Shown: positions 37,164 to 45,868 of the stretch, one piece after another
Numbering within the stretch: the first letter of the stretch is position 1
Layout of the letters: each line of letters opens with the position of its first letter
Source of the DNA: Holophagales bacterium
GTDB taxonomy: Bacteria > Acidobacteriota > Thermoanaerobaculia > Multivoradales > Multivoraceae
DNA: 64,000 bases
Assembly (NCBI GenBank): GCA_009836625.1
Contig: VXVC01000001.1
Coordinates: 62,001 to 126,000, forward strand
Direction: 5' to 3'
The notes under the pieces: generated by a model
The model's database searches: none
Told to the model about the DNA's origin: nothing
What the model saw: only the letters and a program-made list of their open reading frames with translations
Made by a program: the position numbers and the translations under genes

Positions 37164-38879
37164 ATGCTTCGCTCCCTGCGCGTCCGGAACCTGGCCGTGA
37201 TTGAACGGGCGGAACTCGAGTTCGGGCCCGGGCTGAACGTGGTCACCGGCGAGACGGGAGCGGGCAAGTCCCTGGTCGTCGATTCGCTTTCGCTGCTCGC
37301 CGGGGGGCGCGCAAGTTCGGAGATGATCCGTACGGGCGCCGGCACGCTGGCGGTGAGCGGCCTCTTCGAGTCCTCGGGCGCCGCATGGCGCGGTCAGCTC
37401 GAAGAGGCCGGTGTGCCGGCGGACGGCGACGAACTCCTGGTGCGCCGGGAGGTCACCCGGGAGGGACGCAACCGGGTGTTCGTCAACGACCATCCGGTCA
37501 CCGCGAGGCTGCTTTCGACGGTCGCCCACGGTCTGATCCGCATCTTCGGCCAGCGGGACGAACTCGGCATGCTGTCGGCCGACCTCCAGCGGGCCTGGCT
37601 CGACCGCTCCGGCGGCGACTCGCTGGCGGCGCTGGTCGATTCATGCCGCGAGGCCTGGGGCGCCTACCGCGAGGCTGCCGACCGGCTCGAGCGGCTCTCC
37701 CTGGACGACCAGCTTCGCCAGGAACGGATCGACCTCCTGAAGTTCCAGACCTCGGAGATCGACGCCGCGCGTCTGCTGCCCGGCGAGGACGAAGAGCTTC
37801 GGGCCGAGCGCGAGGTGCTCCGCCACGCCGAGGCGATCGCGGGGGCGCTGCACCGGGCGATCTCCCTGCTCAGCGACGACGAGCTGGCGGTCGACGGTCG
37901 AGTCGCGCAGGCCGGGAACGCGCTTTCGGACATTTCGCGGTGGCAGCCGGAGGCCGCGTCCTGGGTCGAGACCCTGGCCGGGGTCGGCGCGAGCGTGAAC
38001 GACCTCGCGCGGGAGTTGCGGAGCCGGGCGGCCGGCTGCGAGTCGGAGCCGGCCCGTCTGAACCAGATCGAGGAGCGGTTGAGCGTGATCGAGCGTCTGA
38101 CCCGCAAGCACGGCGGCAGCAGCTCGGATGTCCTGGAGCACGGCCGCCGCCTGGCGGAGGAACTGTTCGAGCTGGAGACCGCGGATGTTCGCCGGGAGGA
38201 GGTGGAGCGGGAAGCCGCCGAGCGCCTCGCCGAGTACGCCGGGCACGCCGAGGCGCTCTCCGCTGCCCGGCGGGAACGGGCCGGCGCCCTCGAGCGCGAG
38301 GTCCACGGTCATCTCCTGGACCTGGCCTTCGAGCGGGCGGCGTTCGAGGTGGAGATCGCCCGCGAGCCTCGCGCCGGCAGTCCGCTCGAGCTCGATGGCG
38401 AGCGGATCGCTTTCGACGCCCGGGGCGTCGACCGGGTCGCCTACCGGTTCAGCGCGAATCCGGGCGAGGATCTGCGGCCGCTGTCGCGGGTCGCTTCGGG
38501 CGGGGAGCTGGCGCGCCTGTTCCTGGCGCTCCAGACCGCGGTCCGGGGCGGCGGCCCGGCCGAGGGTTCGACCCTCGTGTTCGACGAAGTGGACTCCGGC
38601 GTCGGCGGCGCCGAGGCGGCGATCGTCGGCCGGAAGCTCCAGCGGCTCGCCGACGGCGGCCAGATCCTGGCGGTGACCCACCTGCCCCAGGTGGCGTCCC
38701 GCGGCAACCGCCACCTCGAAGTGAAGAAGGAGGTCCACGCCGGCCGCACCCGAGTCGACGTCCACCGCCTCGACCACGAGCACCGCATCGAAGAAGTCGC
38801 CCGCATGCTCGCCGGGGAACACGTCACGGAAGCCTCCCGCTCAGCCGCCGCGGAACTGCTCGCCGCCGGGACCGAGTAG
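37164..38879 (+). CDS. recN: DNA repair protein RecN
   Basis: SMC-like ATPase acting early in double-strand break repair. The 571-residue product has the Walker A motif NVVTGETGAGKSLVVDSLSL near residue 26, long central coiled coils, the ABC signature LSRVASGGELARLFLAL near 435 and Walker B STLVFDEVDSGVGG near 465. It starts 8 bp after proC, so it is likely in the same transcript and not under its own SOS promoter. Confidence 0.97.
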   Translation: MLRSLRVRNLAVIERAELEFGPGLNVVTGETGAGKSLVVDSLSLLAGGRASSEMIRTGAGTLAVSGLFESSGAAWRGQLEEAGVPADGDELLVRREVTREGRNRVFVNDHPVTARLLSTVAHGLIRIFGQRDELGMLSADLQRAWLDRSGGDSLAALVDSCREAWGAYREAADRLERLSLDDQLRQERIDLLKFQTSEIDAARLLPGEDEELRAEREVLRHAEAIAGALHRAISLLSDDELAVDGRVAQAGNALSDISRWQPEAASWVETLAGVGASVNDLARELRSRAAGCESEPARLNQIEERLSVIERLTRKHGGSSSDVLEHGRRLAEELFELETADVRREEVEREAAERLAEYAGHAEALSAARRERAGALEREVHGHLLDLAFERAAFEVEIAREPRAGSPLELDGERIAFDARGVDRVAYRFSANPGEDLRPLSRVASGGELARLFLALQTAVRGGGPAEGSTLVFDEVDSGVGGAEAAIVGRKLQRLADGGQILAVTHLPQVASRGNRHLEVKKEVHAGRTRVDVHRLDHEHRIEEVARMLAGEHVTEASRSAAAELLAAGTE

Positions 38880-38907
38880 CGGAGCCAAGTCGCTAGGCTC
38901 ACCAGCC

Positions 38908-39495
38908 ATGCTCGACGTATGGCCCTGGGACGGCGACCTGAACGAGGTGAGAGCGGCCCTCTCCGGAGGGCGGATCCTGGCGATCCCGACTGAATCCTCC
39001 TACGGCCTGGCCGTCGATCCACGTTCGATAGCAGGCGTCGAGGCGATCTACCGCCTCAAGGAGCGGGAACGAGGCAAGCCGCTGCCGGTCGTGGTGGCCA
39101 GCCTTGAACAGGTCATCGACCTCGGCGTCGAACCGAACGAGGCGATCCGGTTTGCCGAAGCACACTGGCCGGCGCCGCTTACCGTCGTGGCGCCTCTACG
39201 GTCGGGCGTGTCCGTGCCGGCGGCCGCCGGGGGAGACACGCTGGCGGTGCGGGTGCCGGACCACGACCGACTCCGTGGATTCGTTCAGGCTCTCGGTCAT
39301 CCGCTGACCGCGACCAGCGCGAACCGGAGCGGCGAGCCGCCCGCGTGCGACCTGGCCGACCTCGAACCGATCCTCGACGCCACCGGCGCGCTGGTGATTG
39401 GCGGCGAGCGGACCCCCGGGGGGCTGGCATCCACCGTGGTATCTTGGACTTCCGCCGGTTTGCGGGTGTTGCGCCGCGGGCGCTTCGAGTTCTGA
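38908..39495 (+). CDS. tsaC: Threonylcarbamoyl-AMP synthase (TsaC/YrdC family)
   Basis: Makes threonylcarbamoyl-AMP from threonine, bicarbonate and ATP for the t6A37 modification of ANN-decoding tRNAs. The 195-residue product has GGRILAIPTESSYGLAVDPR near 22, IYRLKERERGKPLPVVVASL near 47 and LTATSANRSGEPPACDLADL near 131, matching the single-domain YrdC form (no Sua5 C-terminal domain). Confidence 0.93.
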   Translation: MLDVWPWDGDLNEVRAALSGGRILAIPTESSYGLAVDPRSIAGVEAIYRLKERERGKPLPVVVASLEQVIDLGVEPNEAIRFAEAHWPAPLTVVAPLRSGVSVPAAAGGDTLAVRVPDHDRLRGFVQALGHPLTATSANRSGEPPACDLADLEPILDATGALVIGGERTPGGLASTVVSWTSAGLRVLRRGRFEF

Positions 39496-39537: not shown

Positions 39538-41388
39538 GTGAGCCGATCCGCCGTCTCCCTCGTCGCGCTCCTTTGCGCCTGGAATCTGCCGCAGGCGGCG
39601 CCGGTAGAGGCTCAGGAGCCGGTCGCCGCGTCACGCACCGCGGGAGCCCCCGCGGTCGACCTGGACGGCGACGAGATCGGGGTCGACGAAGTCGCCCGCG
39701 GCCAGACCGGCTACGGCCTGTCCGTGTTCGCTGGCAGCGAGCCGGAGCGCTTCGGCGTCGAGGTCGTCGGTGTCCTGCGCGAGATGGACCCTGGCACGAG
39801 CTTCATCGTCGCCCGGTTGAGCGGCAAGGGGCTCGAGGAGTCGGGGGTGGTGGCCGGAATGAGCGGCAGTCCGGTCTACATCGACGACCGCCTGGCCGGC
39901 GCCGTGGCCTACTCCTGGGCGTTCACCAGCGAGGCTCTGGCGCTGATCACGCCGATCGCCGCGATGCGGCAGTTGAGCGCGCTCGATCCGGGCCAAGCGG
40001 CCGGCGGCTCGCTAGGTCTGTCTGCTCCGGGAGCGCCCGCGCCCTTCGAGCGCTCGGTGCGGCAGATCCTCGAACCTCCGGAGGACGTGGCCGAGGCTGT
40101 CCGCGAAGTCGTGGCCGAGCAGCTTGGGGCTCTGTTGACCCCGTCCGACTGGGGCGGCCGCGGCGCCTCGATCGCCATGCTGGGCTTCGGCGAGCCGGTG
40201 CGGCGGATGCTCGCCGCCGCTCCCGCCGGGCGGGCTGAGGCCTTCGACGCACCCGAACTCGGCGCGGGCAGCGCGGTTGCTGGCGTCCTGATCGACGGCG
40301 ACCTGAAGCTCGCGGTCGGCGGCACGGTGACCCGCGTGGAGGACGGTGAAGTGCTGGCCATGGGTCACCCCTATCTCGGCGTCGGACCCCTGGGAGTGCC
40401 GATGGCGACGGTGGAAGTGGTCGGCGTTGTCCCCCGGCTCAACAGCTCGACCCGGCTCAGCAACATCGGTCCTGTGGTCGGCGCCTTCGACCAGGATCGC
40501 TTCGCCGGGCTCAGGGGCACGCTCGGCGCCGAGGCCCGGACGATCCCGATGACGATCGATGTGGAGACGCCGAACGGCGAGTCTCGACGTTTCGACCTTC
40601 GGCTCGCCGACCTGCCGATCATGCTGCCGTCGCTGGTCGGCATCCCGACCATGCAGGCACTCGATTCGGCCTCGTACGGCGCCGGCGAGAGCAGCCTCGA
40701 CATGACCGGCACCTTGCGGCTGCGAGGCCACGCCGACGTGCCGCTGCGCCAGGTCTTCGACGGCTCGAACCCCGGCATCCGCGCCGCCTTCTACCTCATC
40801 GCCCTGGTGGGCGCCCTGGTCCACTCGGACTACGAGGCGGTGGAGGTGGAGGGCATCGACCTGACTCTGACGCAGGGCCACGCTCCCCGCATGATCACCA
40901 TCGAGCGGGCCCAGGCATCGTCCAGCCGGGTTCGCGCGGGCGACACGGTCCAGGTCGTCTTCGATTTGCGCCGGCATCGCGGCGACCGCTTCCAGGAGAC
41001 GCTGGACGTGGTCGTTCCCGAGGACCGGCGCCCCGGCCGCTACTACCTGTTCGTGGGCGACGGCGTCAGCATCGACGCCGCCCGCCTCCAGCTTCAGCCA
41101 GGCAAGGCCTCCTCTCTCGAGGACGAGCTGAAACTGCTGCGGTCCTTCCAGTCCCAGAGCCGGCTCGCCGCGCTCGGCGTCGTGCCGGCGCGTGGGCTGA
41201 TCGTCGAAGGTCGACCGCTGCCGGACCTGCCGGCCACCGTGCGGTCGATCTGGCAGGCGTCGCCGCTGCAGGGGGAGCCGCGGGCCCTGAACCTGGCGAT
41301 TGTCAGCGAAGACGGTCGCGATCTCGGCACGCCGCTCGACGGTCTGTTCCGGATCGACCTCCAGATCCTGCCGGGCACGACGCCGTGA
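39538..41388 (+). CDS. Secreted SpoIVB-type (S55 family) serine peptidase-like protein
   Basis: A 616-residue protein with a signal peptide (SAVSLVALLCAWNLPQAAPVEA). Residues ~50-290 resemble the S55 domain of SpoIVB: GQTGYGLSVFAGSEPERFGV, then VVAGMSGSPVYIDDRLAGAV with the putative nucleophile Ser in GMSGSP (about residue 107), and VLAMGHPYLGVGPLGVPMATV near 278. The rest is probably beta-rich. In endospore formers SpoIVB is a signalling protease; no sporulation genes are seen here. GTG 39538; its stop overlaps the next gene (GTGA). Confidence 0.8.
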   Translation: MSRSAVSLVALLCAWNLPQAAPVEAQEPVAASRTAGAPAVDLDGDEIGVDEVARGQTGYGLSVFAGSEPERFGVEVVGVLREMDPGTSFIVARLSGKGLEESGVVAGMSGSPVYIDDRLAGAVAYSWAFTSEALALITPIAAMRQLSALDPGQAAGGSLGLSAPGAPAPFERSVRQILEPPEDVAEAVREVVAEQLGALLTPSDWGGRGASIAMLGFGEPVRRMLAAAPAGRAEAFDAPELGAGSAVAGVLIDGDLKLAVGGTVTRVEDGEVLAMGHPYLGVGPLGVPMATVEVVGVVPRLNSSTRLSNIGPVVGAFDQDRFAGLRGTLGAEARTIPMTIDVETPNGESRRFDLRLADLPIMLPSLVGIPTMQALDSASYGAGESSLDMTGTLRLRGHADVPLRQVFDGSNPGIRAAFYLIALVGALVHSDYEAVEVEGIDLTLTQGHAPRMITIERAQASSSRVRAGDTVQVVFDLRRHRGDRFQETLDVVVPEDRRPGRYYLFVGDGVSIDAARLQLQPGKASSLEDELKLLRSFQSQSRLAALGVVPARGLIVEGRPLPDLPATVRSIWQASPLQGEPRALNLAIVSEDGRDLGTPLDGLFRIDLQILPGTTP

Positions 41389-43676
41389 GGAGACGGCACC
41401 GTACCGCCGCGGCGACGGCCGCGGCCGCGATCCTGCTGCTCGCCGGCACCGGGACCACCGCCGCCTCGGAGGTCCAGATCTGGCGCGCCAACAGTCAGGC
41501 CGCCTTCCTTGCCGGCGAGCTGGTCGACGTCAGCGTGGATCGCCTGGGTGTTCTGAGGCTGGCGCAGCGCGCGGAGCAGATCGCCACCCTTTCCGAGCCC
41601 TTCCTGTTCTCCTTTGCCGGCGCGAACGGCCGCTTCGCGGCCGGGACCGGAAACTCGGGCAAGGTGCTCGAGATCAGCGCCGGTGCCGACGCCGGCTCGG
41701 TTGCCGAACTCTTCGCGGCCGAGGAACCCGAGATCTTCGCGGTCTGGGTCGACGGTGCCGGTGTCGTCTACGCCGGCTCGTCGCCGGACGGCAAGGTGTA
41801 CCGCAAGCGCCCGGACGGGGAAGTCGAGGCCGTCTTCGATCCCGAGGCGAAGTACATCTGGGCGCTCCTGGGCGATGGCGACGGCGGTCTGCTGGTGGGC
41901 ACCGGCCCGGAGGGTGAGCTCCATCGGGTCGACCTGGGAAGTGGCGAGTCGACCCTGCTCTATGACAGCACGGATCTGCACATCCGCTCGCTCGCCCGGC
42001 GCGCGGACGGCACGCTGTTCGCCGGCACGGCTGGCGAGGGTCTCCTGCTGGAGATCGACACGGAGGGAGCGGCCCGCACCCTCTACGACGCGGCCGGGCC
42101 GGAGGTGTTGGCGATCGTTCCGGGCGAGGAAGGCGCCTTCTACGCGACCGCCCTGGCCTCCGAGGCGAGCTTCGTCGACCTGACCAGCGCGCGCCGATCC
42201 TCCTCGGGCGGTTCGTCGAGCGGGACCACCAGCCGCACCGGCGGCAATGGCGGCAGTTCGACGGAATCGAACGATCAGACGACCCAGGTCACGGCCCAGG
42301 CCGGGGCGATCTCGGTCGGCAGTCGCGCCGCTTCGTTCAAGGGACCTCGTTCCGAGGTACTGCGGATCGATGGAAGCGGCTCGGTCGAGTCGATCTGGAA
42401 GTTCGAGGCCGAGACGGTGTACGCCCTGAGCTACCAGCAGGGCAGGCTCTGGGTCGCCACCGGCCAGGAGGGCAAGCTGTTCAGCTACCAGAACGAGCAG
42501 ATGGTGCTGGAGAAGGATCTCGACCAGGGTCAGATCGTCGGGCTCGCGGAGGGGCCCGCGGGTCCCGTCTTCGCGAGCACGAACGCGGCGGCCGTCTACG
42601 GCTTCGTCGGCGGCGGGTCCGCCGGGTTGGCGGAGCGGGGCACGGTCACCGCCAAGCCGCTCGACGCGTCGTCGGTGGCGAGCTTCGGTTCGATCCGCTG
42701 GCGCGGCCGCGCCGGCGACGGAGTCGAGGTCGCGCTCTCGGCCCGCAGCGGCATGAGCTCGACGCCGGACGAGACCTGGTCCGGGTGGACGATGGCCTCC
42801 GTGGCGCGGGAGGCGCCGCTCTCCGACCTGCCGCCGGGCCGGTACCTGCAGTGGCGGGCCGAACTTCGCGGCAGCGGTGACCGGACCCCCGAGGTCGTGG
42901 CGGTCGAGGTCACCTACCGCCAGCACAACCGCAAGCCGGAGATCAAGAAGCTGGAGGTCCTGCCGGCGGGCACGATCCTGGTGCCGACGAACTTCAACCC
43001 CTCGAACCAGGCCTACGAACCGGCGCACCCGAACCGCGACCGCATCTTCACCGTCGTCGGGGACCCGGCGCAGACCCAGAGAGGCTCCACCAAGACCCTC
43101 TGGAAGCTCGGCTACCGGACCCTGCGCTGGGAGGCCGAGGATCCGAACAAGGACCGTCTCCGCTACCGGCTCTCGTTCGCCCGCGAGGCGGCGCTGGCGG
43201 CAGCCGGCGAGGACGGCGGGGACGAGGAGGGTCCGTGGCTGGAGGTGGCGGACGACCTGAAGGCGACGTTCTTCAGCTTCGACGCCACTGTGCTGCCGGA
43301 CGGTGTCTATCGCTTCCGCGTGGAAGCCAGTGACCGGCTCGACAACGTCGCCGGTGAGGCGCTGGAGGCGGAGGAGATATCCGCCGCGGTGGTCGTCGAC
43401 CACAGTCCCGCCCGGCTCGTCTCCGCGACCCGTGACGGCGACCGGGTGACGGCGGTGGTCGAGGACGCCTGGAGCCCGTTGCGTGAAGCGGTGATCAGTG
43501 TCAACGCGGGTGAATGGCGTTCCGTCCGGGTCGAGGACGGCCTCCTCGACAGCCAGCGCGAGACGCTTTCCACCCCGGCTCCGGAGGGCGCCCGCCTGCT
43601 GCTGCTGCGGCTGACCGACGCCGCCCACAATGTCACCACCATCGACCTCTCAGGCCAACTCGGGAGCGGCCAATGA
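41385..43676 (+). CDS. Secreted beta-propeller protein with C-terminal Ig/Fn3-like region
   Basis: A 763-residue secreted protein (signal: TAAATAAAAILLLAGTGTTA). Residues ~60-430 contain repeats of the type AGTGNSGKVLEI, AGSSPDGKVYRK, VGTGPEGELHRV, AGTAGEGLLLEI and VATGQEGKLFSY, indicating a beta-propeller. A Ser/Gly/Thr-rich linker (~268-303) interrupts it. The C-terminal part (FGSIRWRGRAGDGVEVALSA, later LPDGVYRFRVEASDRLDNVA) looks like beta-sandwich domains. It overlaps the S55 peptidase gene and coaD by 4 bp each. Function unknown; partner or substrate of the peptidase is a reasonable guess. Confidence 0.78.
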   Translation: MRRRHRTAAATAAAAILLLAGTGTTAASEVQIWRANSQAAFLAGELVDVSVDRLGVLRLAQRAEQIATLSEPFLFSFAGANGRFAAGTGNSGKVLEISAGADAGSVAELFAAEEPEIFAVWVDGAGVVYAGSSPDGKVYRKRPDGEVEAVFDPEAKYIWALLGDGDGGLLVGTGPEGELHRVDLGSGESTLLYDSTDLHIRSLARRADGTLFAGTAGEGLLLEIDTEGAARTLYDAAGPEVLAIVPGEEGAFYATALASEASFVDLTSARRSSSGGSSSGTTSRTGGNGGSSTESNDQTTQVTAQAGAISVGSRAASFKGPRSEVLRIDGSGSVESIWKFEAETVYALSYQQGRLWVATGQEGKLFSYQNEQMVLEKDLDQGQIVGLAEGPAGPVFASTNAAAVYGFVGGGSAGLAERGTVTAKPLDASSVASFGSIRWRGRAGDGVEVALSARSGMSSTPDETWSGWTMASVAREAPLSDLPPGRYLQWRAELRGSGDRTPEVVAVEVTYRQHNRKPEIKKLEVLPAGTILVPTNFNPSNQAYEPAHPNRDRIFTVVGDPAQTQRGSTKTLWKLGYRTLRWEAEDPNKDRLRYRLSFAREAALAAAGEDGGDEEGPWLEVADDLKATFFSFDATVLPDGVYRFRVEASDRLDNVAGEALEAEEISAAVVVDHSPARLVSATRDGDRVTAVVEDAWSPLREAVISVNAGEWRSVRVEDGLLDSQRETLSTPAPEGARLLLLRLTDAAHNVTTIDLSGQLGSGQ

Positions 43677-44179: not shown

Positions 44180-45868
44180 CTAGATCGACTTCGGGCCGAC
44201 CTTCCCGGTCGAGGTCAGGTTCGTTCCCGTCAAGGGGTCGTGCACCGTGATCACGTACGAGTGTTCGCGGCGGCGGAGTTGCAGATCGGTCTCGTAGTAG
44301 AAGATCTGGCCCGGCTGCGGTTCCTGGGAACCAGTGATCGGGACTTTCTCGAAGGACACTTCGGAGCGGTTGCCGCCTTCGTCCATCGCCGTCACGCGAA
44401 TCTCCACCACGCTGAGCCACTCGCCGGCGACGGGCAGGAGCTGGATCTCGTCGAGGGGGATCGCCACCTCGACGTTCACCGACATCTTGCGGCGGCCGGC
44501 GCGAACCGGCTTGGAGAAGTGCACTTCGAGCGGTAGTGCGTCGGGCGGATCGCCGAACAGCAGCGCTGCCTTCGCCGTCATGTCGAGCTCGTGGTCGCGC
44601 GACATGTCGACGTAGCCTTCGCGTGCGCGGGCGTTGAGGTCGGCCCGGCCTGCGAGCCGCACCACGATCTGATGGAACCTGTTGTCCTCACGGCGCTGGG
44701 GCTCGAAACCGAGCCAGTAGTACGAGCGCGTGTCCGCCGCCACGCTGGCCAGCGCCACGTCCCGCCGGAAGTTGACGAGTGGGACGCCGCCGGTCGAGCG
44801 GGCCAGCAGGTGCAGCGTGCTGTGCACGGTGTCCTCCCTTTCGAGCGCACCAGTAAGGGCGCCTGCAGGGTCGACTGCACCGTTCGCGCGCACCCCGGTC
44901 GACGCGTCGCCCCCGAAGCTCCTCACGGGACCCGGCACGTCAACCGGGTAGAGCGAGAAGCCGATCAGGTTCGCCGTCGACACCAGAGGACCGTAGAGTT
45001 CATCCTCGCTCATGATCCGGCGATCCCGCGGCAGGCCGCCGTCGGGGAGATTCGCTCGCGTGTAGATCGCCACGGACCTGGGCCAGCCGCCAGCGAGCAG
45101 CAGCATCACCTTGCGGCCTGGCTGGCGGGAGAACTGACGCATCGTAGCCATCGCGGCCAGCACCGAACTCTCCAACTGGTTGTTCAGGCGCTCCCTGTAG
45201 GAGTGTTGCGCTCTGGAGAAGAGAGAGGCAAGGCTCCTGGAACCTTCGGGCTGGACCGCTTCGACATCCGCTCGCACTTGCCGGTCCGTATCGGCCAGGC
45301 TCCGTGCGGTGAGCTGCTTCATGCCGCGGGTCGGCCGCTCGCGCGCCCGGTCCAGCGCCTCCTCCAGCTCCATCGAGCGCGGCGTCCAGCCCGTCAGCGT
45401 CTCGGCGCTCTTGCCGTCGAACGCGACGACCGCCACCCGGTCCACCGGACGCAGCGTTCGGAGGTCGTCCCTCAAGCGGTCGAGCACCCTGTTGCGGTCG
45501 CGCTTGATCGAGAAGAGGTCGTCGATGAAGACCAGGAAGTTCGTGCCGACCGGCGCGTCCGGGTCCACGCTCGGCACCGCGGCCATGTCGCCATTCCGGG
45601 CCCCCAGGGCGAGGCCGTCCTCGATCTCAGTGAAGTAGTCGATCGGTGTGGGCTTGCCGTCGACCAGGAGCTCAAAGTCCGACGGCTTCAGTCCTTGGAC
45701 GCGGTTTCCCTGACGGTCGGTGACGACGACCTCGACGTTCACGACGCGAACGTCGATCGTCTCCGAGAACACCTCGGGGATCTCCACCTCCTGGCCCGTC
45801 GCCGGGGCAGCCGCCCACACGAAGGCTGCGAGAAGCCAGGCGACCAGGAGGGTTCGCCGGGACCTCAC
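44180..45868 (-). CDS. Secreted VWFA-domain protein (Acidobacteria-type)
   Basis: A 562-residue protein with a signal peptide (LLVAWLLAAFVWAAAPATGQ). Residues ~38-85 carry the family opening VRVVNVEVVVTDRQGNRVQG and GLKPSDFELLVDGKP, followed by a von Willebrand A-like fold with FLVFIDDLFSIKRDRNRVLD (a degenerate MIDAS) near 110 and VDRVAVVAFDGKS near 138. This layout corresponds to the 'VWFA-related Acidobacterial domain' family, frequent in multiple copies in Acidobacteriota. It is convergent with coaD. Ligand unknown. Confidence 0.85.
   Translation of the reverse strand: MRSRRTLLVAWLLAAFVWAAAPATGQEVEIPEVFSETIDVRVVNVEVVVTDRQGNRVQGLKPSDFELLVDGKPTPIDYFTEIEDGLALGARNGDMAAVPSVDPDAPVGTNFLVFIDDLFSIKRDRNRVLDRLRDDLRTLRPVDRVAVVAFDGKSAETLTGWTPRSMELEEALDRARERPTRGMKQLTARSLADTDRQVRADVEAVQPEGSRSLASLFSRAQHSYRERLNNQLESSVLAAMATMRQFSRQPGRKVMLLLAGGWPRSVAIYTRANLPDGGLPRDRRIMSEDELYGPLVSTANLIGFSLYPVDVPGPVRSFGGDASTGVRANGAVDPAGALTGALEREDTVHSTLHLLARSTGGVPLVNFRRDVALASVAADTRSYYWLGFEPQRREDNRFHQIVVRLAGRADLNARAREGYVDMSRDHELDMTAKAALLFGDPPDALPLEVHFSKPVRAGRRKMSVNVEVAIPLDEIQLLPVAGEWLSVVEIRVTAMDEGGNRSEVSFEKVPITGSQEPQPGQIFYYETDLQLRRREHSYVITVHDPLTGTNLTSTGKVGPKSI

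Follow-up and report, generated by a model that had tools for sequence, protein, structure and literature searches.

A putatively permuted S55-type serine peptidase and its beta-propeller partner form a two-gene module across the Acidobacteriota

A 64,000-nucleotide stretch of the genome of a Holophagales bacterium (Acidobacteriota; assembly GCA_009836625.1, contig VXVC01000001.1, positions 62,001 to 126,000), hereafter referred to as the window, carries two overlapping genes that encode a serine peptidase of the S55 (SpoIVB) type and a beta-propeller protein, both with a predicted signal for export (Table 1). Comparisons of sequences and structure models indicate that the catalytic domain of this peptidase family very probably arose from the SpoIVB-type domain by circular permutation in nature, and the two genes represent a phylum-wide module with near-perfect co-occurrence. 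The architecture appears to be new and well supported, and sequence data argue strongly for the two-gene module. A reading made from the letters of the window alone (the sequence-only reading) had proposed an S55 peptidase, a context other than sporulation and coupling to a propeller; these points stood, while it had missed the permutation, the occurrence in Brocadiales and the complete Ser/His/Asp set.

Barrel order and catalytic residues of the peptidase

The S55 similarity was retrieved in a profile search, in which the peptidase scored 26.6 bits against PF05580 (Peptidase_S55; cut-off 25, E 7e-6), with a match limited to the half that holds GMSGSP (profile positions 125-192 of 210). The cut-off of this family was exceeded in 167 of 199 acidobacterial genomes. 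Against TIGR02860 (SpoIVB) the score was 28.7 bits, far below the equivalog cut-off of 305.25, and a Pfam scan at E values up to 1 found no PDZ match in the peptidase. Comparison of the Ser half with SpoIVB sequences (B. subtilis, PDB 9lnf; Monoglobus, Sedimentibacter and Subdoligranulum, from plasmid records) gave hhalign probabilities of 97.8-98.1% and an E value of 1e-12, a score reached by none of 150 column shuffles. In the AlphaFold2 (AF2) model (predicted local distance difference test, pLDDT, 84; predicted template modelling score, pTM, 0.81), residues ~40-153 have the fold of a PA-clan Ser barrel, as matches by both VIA and Foldseek indicate. VIA placed model residues 40-153 onto residues 308-426 of SpoIVB 9lnf (Z 6.9, 109 residues, root mean square deviation, rmsd, 3.8) and model residues 43-152 onto residues 124-238 of DegQ 4ynn (Z 8.2, 102 residues, rmsd 3.0); both targets are C-terminal barrels, and Z values of this size are modest according to the note of the tool.

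In SpoIVB, the barrel with His236 comes first and is followed by the barrel with Ser378. The window family shows GMSGSP, a linker, GTVT...FGHP and QDR...G, and in place of the His-then-Ser order of S55, Ser109 precedes His277. The identity of the second block as the missing SpoIVB barrel is suggested by relatives of the window protein. Among 46 His-half segments compared with all of Pfam, PF05580 was the most frequent family (7/46, best E 0.032), and 4 of 10 His halves scanned singly, three of them from Brocadiales or other Planctomycetota and one titled KSB1, matched PF05580, in each case inside profile positions 12-98. When the two halves were rejoined in SpoIVB order, all four informative relatives went from two PF05580 stretches to one, which ran from profile position 12/13 to 192/202 and scored 4.7-6.0 bits above the native protein (50.4 to 56.4, 50.2 to 55.1, 48.0 to 53.1 and 46.5 to 51.2 bits). 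A local hidden Markov model (HMM) built from five canonical proteins gave a similar result for 138 homologues, i.e., 61 from 60 genome regions plus the window and 77 from named records, a set in which the window occurs twice and others are possibly repeated. Reordering lifted the score in 137 of the 138 (median +2.5 bits), and in 34 a stretch then spanned both barrels, vs none of the 138 before reordering; when the His half was shuffled, the score rose in 16 and no spanning stretch was found (0/138). Reordering at other breakpoints led to smaller median gains or to losses. The strands of the AF2 model run in two blocks, the first with strands at 57-62, 70-84, 87-95, S109, strands at 112-115, 118-126 and 134-139 and a helix at 140-148, and the second with strands at 246-254, 258-268 and 271-274, H277, and strands at 283-298, 304-321 (which holds D320) and 324-329; we take this order to be that of chymotrypsin with its second barrel moved to the front. 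Among the matches listed for the 199 genomes, which do not include weak ones, none to PF05580 started below profile position 94, and therefore no S55 protein in SpoIVB order was seen in them.

Several results weigh against a permutation. The His half of the window protein itself had no Pfam match, either in a single-sequence search or in the rejoining test (29.4 bits native vs 30.4 bits rejoined, Ser half only), being too diverged, and a profile-profile comparison by hhalign of the His half of the family with four canonical sequences gave a weak, no more than suggestive match (P ~0.01, with 1 of 150 shuffles as good). Foldseek and VIA matched mainly the Ser barrel (for 9lnf, Foldseek E 0.46, prob 0.97), and the permutation is not visible by structure alignment. 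Small score rises were also obtained at breakpoints 0.4, 0.6 and 0.75 (112, 103 and 114 of 138) and at 0.9 (34 of 138), with none at 0.15 and 0.3, and small reordering gains alone prove little because other breakpoints give them too. Spanning stretches appeared at breakpoints 0.4, 0.3, 0.6 and 0.75 in 34, 32, 11 and 1 homologues, with lower scores at 0.3; the alternative cuts that gave them mostly also put His-barrel sequence ahead of Ser-barrel sequence.

S109, H277 and D320 form the predicted catalytic triad. Three alignment modes, in which 18 of the 138 proteins were aligned, agreed on the matches of these residues to Ser378, His236 and Asn290 of SpoIVB, and the spacing from His to Asp was 43 residues in 134/138 and 44 in the remainder. 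At the D320 column, the five canonical SpoIVB proteins have N, S, N, N and N. The column of SpoIVB Thr393, a residue that has been proposed as the third catalytic one, holds Ala or Ser in the window family, and that of Asp363 mostly Gly. According to the report on the SpoIVB crystal structure, Asp363 lies ~24 Å from His236 and the third catalytic residue was left in doubt (PMC12502668). The invariant Asp of the window family at the Asn290 column bears on this disputed residue, and the permuted family may have kept a triad that SpoIVB changed at this position. The possibility that the S55 fold is kept as a pseudo-protease scaffold, for structure alone, could draw on the same dispute, in which even SpoIVB has no agreed third residue (PMC12502668), but is hardly credible, given that all three residues are invariant in 138/138, which would be unexpected for a dead enzyme so diverged.

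The family thus resembles SpoIVB (PF05580, TIGR02860; 9lnf) in its GMSGSP barrel and, in relatives, also in its GTVT..FGH barrel, but differs from it by the reversed barrels, the absence of a PDZ domain, the Asp at the Asn290 column and a host that does not form spores. HtrA, DegS and DegQ share the PA-clan Ser barrel and an envelope location, which for the window peptidase is predicted, but have another barrel order and a PDZ domain, and the window peptidase has instead a separate propeller protein as its partner. Peptidase clans are partly sorted by the linear order of their catalytic residues, as stated in PMC3434108; a barrel swap alters this order and would therefore represent a natural test of fold tolerance. 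The proposed permutation also accounts for the annotation of these proteins with half a domain.

Co-occurrence of the peptidase and propeller genes

The coupling to a secreted propeller proved far stronger than the sequence-only reading was able to show. Both proteins were looked for in one set of 297 genomes, and S55 was found in 281; all 281 carry the propeller, complete in 280 and cut by a contig end in one. The propeller profile matched with E 2.2e-54 or better in the 280, and the exception (G159, E 2.3e-24) is the genome with the cut gene; the E threshold for a complete propeller was set after the gap between 2.3e-24 and 2.2e-54 had been seen. By comparison, the propeller was found in none of the 16 S55-negative genomes (0/16), where no match surpassed 5.7e-17 and S55 was likewise absent by profile search (16/16). 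Fisher's test on the raw table (280/1/0/16), not corrected for phylogeny, gave 1.5e-25. Several independent losses of the pair seem to have occurred, because nine of the 16 negative genomes, from five families, have a completeness of 96% or more; the other seven are 64-87% complete, and there one lost contig could remove both genes. That this protease and propeller were retained and lost jointly throughout a little-studied phylum suggests a shared envelope process. Searches of plasmids found no relative of either protein, and searches of viral_contigs found no relative of the window-type S55.

Adjacency of the two genes was found to be conserved as well, so that neither a lack of S55 similarity nor a lack of linkage in relatives, the two outcomes the sequence-only reading had set against itself, was observed. 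Sixty regions were compared, each from a different acidobacterial genome (roughly one for each family); in 57 of them a propeller homologue is encoded downstream in the same direction as the peptidase, and one of these is a partial propeller (L051; frame broken, 323 codons) that was left out of the propeller alignment. The frame allows a start within ~150 bp of the peptidase stop in 53 of the 57, a gap of ~0.4-2 kb separates the genes in the other 4, and a possible start at exactly -4 exists in 18 of the 60 regions. The remaining three (G051, G197 and G086) count against obligate linkage, as the genes are unlinked and the propeller lies elsewhere in those genomes. Both 4-bp overlaps that had been described for the window were confirmed in the sequence: the peptidase TGA (41386-41388) overlaps the propeller GTG at 41385, and the propeller stop overlaps the ATG of coaD at 43673. 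The identity of coaD is supported by TIGR01510 (179.5 bits); its overlap is local to part of the class of the window and lies outside the conserved unit.

Eighty named loci were also compared, which are not a random sample because they are the 80 with the highest scores among at least 574 relatives. The propeller is directly downstream in 72/80, or in 72/77 if loci with too little sequence (under 500 bp) are set aside. Of the 8 loci without it, 3 have less than 500 bp left, and the others are L115, three titled Blastocatellia or Pyrinomonadaceae (L126, L133 and L138) and a KSB1-titled contig (L152). All 8 loci from Brocadiales/Planctomycetota carry the pair, as do single genomes titled as other phyla. 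One metagenome-assembled genome (MAG) titled Bifidobacterium breve (L140) carries a pair of the acidobacterial type, and this record is probably mislabelled or mixed. The nearest named relatives of the window, among the best 80 of at least 574, are MAGs titled Acidobacteriota, Holophagales or Thermoanaerobaculia. Some proteins were excluded from the alignments, i.e., L031 (wrong open reading frame, ORF) from the first alignment of 22 proteins, and L095, L097 and L098 (near-copies) and L102 (ORF without a stop within the contig) from alignment A3. For alignment A4, the length/stop filter left 64 propeller ORFs from the 80 loci, and 63 plus the window were aligned.

Both proteins are likely exported, because hydrophobic N-termini are common and lipobox-like motifs are few: both proteins of the window begin with a hydrophobic stretch, and by a simple hydropathy rule, a hydrophobic N-terminus was found in 58/61 peptidase and 54/57 propeller homologues and lipobox-like motifs in 5/61 and 1/57, respectively. 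For the propeller protein, Reg_prop reached 25.3 bits (cut-off 20.4), with no single stretch that passes on its own, and family scans of its 763 amino acids found no histidine kinase or receiver domains. Its AF2 model (pLDDT 84.5, pTM 0.71) aligned with virginiamycin B lyase 2z2o (Z 32.5, 285 residues, rmsd 2.2), and G-protein beta and other propellers tie with 2z2o within 1 in VIA. The columns invariant in 64/64 propeller homologues include R454, G456, W465, W468, N515 and P518.

Table 1. Coordinates in the window of the two genes, their predicted regions and the putative catalytic residues
Feature	Position	Strand	Basis
Predicted circularly permuted S55-type serine peptidase, 616 amino acids, GTG start, Sec-type signal sequence	39538..41388	+	ORF, Pfam, AF2 model
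Signal region of peptidase, hydrophobic, residues ~1-26	39538..39615	+	hydropathy; AF2 helix 4-15
Ser barrel, residues ~45-148, corresponding to C-terminal barrel of SpoIVB/trypsin-like proteases	39670..39981	+	PF05580 125-192, hhalign, VIA
S109, predicted nucleophile, aligns with SpoIVB Ser378	39862..39864	+	invariant 138/138
Variable linker, residues ~149-243, low model confidence	39982..40266	+	pLDDT <50 at 157-161 and 198-235
Putative His barrel, residues ~244-330, corresponding to SpoIVB N-terminal barrel placed second	40267..40527	+	PF05580 12-98 in relatives; AF2 strands
H277, putative general base, counterpart of SpoIVB His236	40366..40368	+	invariant 138/138
D320, putative third residue of the triad, Asn290 in SpoIVB	40495..40497	+	invariant 138/138
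C-terminal beta-rich region of peptidase, residues 331-616, without Pfam match	40528..41385	+	Pfam scan, AF2
Predicted secreted beta-propeller partner, 763 amino acids, GTG start inside peptidase stop codon	41385..43676	+	ORF, Pfam, AF2/VIA
Beta-propeller, residues ~55-411	41547..42617	+	VIA, model 59-411 to 2z2o
Beta-sandwich-like region with invariant R454, W465 and W468, residues ~412-535	42618..42989	+	alignment, AF2
C-terminal beta-rich region of partner, residues ~565-763	43077..43673	+	AF2 strands

Proposed function of the module

Sequence and model features favour, with moderate confidence, a serine endopeptidase of the cell envelope that is gated, or supplied with clients, by a propeller protein dedicated to it. 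The first protein would be exported and fold as a two-barrel endopeptidase of the PA clan and S55 type, in which the Ser barrel is followed by a flexible linker (the distance from Ser to His ranges from 138 to 219 residues across the family), the His/Asp barrel and additional beta domains; SpoIVB carries a PDZ domain at its N-terminus instead. Proteolytic activity and triad geometry are predicted, and an active site assembled from two barrels would agree with the residue conservation and the strand order. The propeller protein would probably be made by translational coupling and be exported too, and its propeller and beta-sandwich scaffold would most likely dock on the protease and gate it or present clients, replacing the missing PDZ domain; contact between the two proteins is, like the gating, a proposal of this model. 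The PDZ domain is known to regulate SpoIVB, and the lack of one in the peptidase would therefore leave room for a regulating partner. On balance, we lean towards a core system of envelope proteolysis that has so far gone undescribed, in which a nearly phylum-wide permutation in Acidobacteriota, also present in Brocadiales, would retain the complete Ser-His-Asp triad of which SpoIVB lost the Asp and would act only together with the propeller.

Known propellers resemble the partner in fold. It has the same fold as virginiamycin/streptogramin B lyase (2z2o) and the propellers of BT4663-type hybrid two-component sensors, but shares 11-12% identity with them and has no kinase domain. Ycf48 (5ojr) and the dispase autolysis-inducing protein DAIP (5fzp) show a resemblance to the partner in fold only; both of these proteins have been linked to proteases.

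An alternative that we consider unlikely is that the propeller is a substrate which the protease, an enzyme with one dedicated client, matures or removes after export. The tight operon and the joint losses fit this explanation equally well, and the long low-confidence segment of the propeller model (261-311) could be cleaved, but the conserved propeller residues sit in folded regions. The sequence-only reading had suggested that the propeller may be a substrate or a regulator of the protease, and the data agree with both.

The pair could also act as a switch in the manner of SpoIVB or DegS, with a site-1 protease cutting an anti-sigma factor or similar membrane client and the propeller as sensor, which seems improbable. 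SpoIVB activates the processing of pro-sigmaK (PMC12502668), the genome has M50 proteases, and relatives of extracytoplasmic function (ECF) sigma factors and zf-HC2 anti-sigma factors occur near the pair in 16/61 and 11/61 regions (the 60 plus the window), respectively. However, these neighbours are clade-bound and missing at most loci, and ECF genes, like M50 proteases, are common everywhere (M50 was present in 14/14 control genomes). Nutritional foraging, in which the protease would cut external protein and an oligopeptide ATP-binding cassette importer would take up the products, is more doubtful still. In 12/61 regions, the propeller gene is followed in the same direction by one for a solute-binding protein of family 5, and dipeptide-type permeases lie near the pair in 19/61, but importer genes are absent at most loci, including the window and Brocadiales, and near-universal, mostly single-copy retention would be unusual for a foraging enzyme. 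Both the ECF/anti-sigma genes and the oligopeptide importers were thus set aside as functional clues, as their clade-bound occurrence makes them hints only.

S55 peptidases outside sporulation are not new, because PMC8841776 already annotates them in acidobacteria, where SpoIVB peptidase (S55) was widely detected and was absent in Acanthopleuribacteraceae. A survey of PDZ domains lists, in its accessible part, no PDZ-SpoIVB in Acidobacteria (PMC6411480), which agrees with the form without PDZ in the window. No mention of a permuted S55 peptidase or of an S55-propeller pair was found in the open literature searched.

Genomic context and minor observations

The peptidase is the sole S55 match in this 4.3-Mb genome. 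The claim of the sequence-only reading that sporulation genes are missing holds for the 10 proteins around the pair, in which no sporulation family was found (the scan for such families covered no other part of the window), and no match to Spo0A_C was found in the genome (the B. subtilis control was positive), which sets this organism apart from the sporulating hosts of SpoIVB.

The genes that flank the pair are not conserved and change between taxonomic orders. In the window, genes of the proC, recN and tsaC type lie upstream. Within 37164-39495, recN precedes the S55 gene with tsaC between them, and Bacillota have the arrangement recN-spoIVB-spo0A; this neighbourhood was rejected as a Bacillota-like signal and is probably a coincidence, because among the 60 regions only those of the taxonomic order of the window have it. 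On the other side, coaD adjoins a gene on the minus strand (44180-45868) that encodes a VWFA-domain protein of acidobacterial type (TIGR03436, 159 bits).

In 11 regions (L042, L043, L053, L058, L066, L072, L076, L078, L089, L092 and L094), a convergent zf-HC2-related gene lies downstream of the propeller, mostly together with ECF sigma-factor and TPR genes; orientations of the ECF and zf-HC2 relatives differ among the named loci. Clusters of antisense ORFs (e.g., 45 loci, minus strand) were read as shadow ORFs of GC-rich DNA, and the neighbour cluster r804, which is mostly a shadow ORF, was ignored.

Of a canonical spoIVB, four IMG/VR contigs (L176, L177, L178 and L179) hold the 3' end alone, from the codon of the catalytic Ser (~position 2001), directly downstream of a long frame that by eye, without a family scan, reads like a large serine recombinase. 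These contigs look like mobile elements integrated inside spoIVB, as is the case for other sporulation genes.

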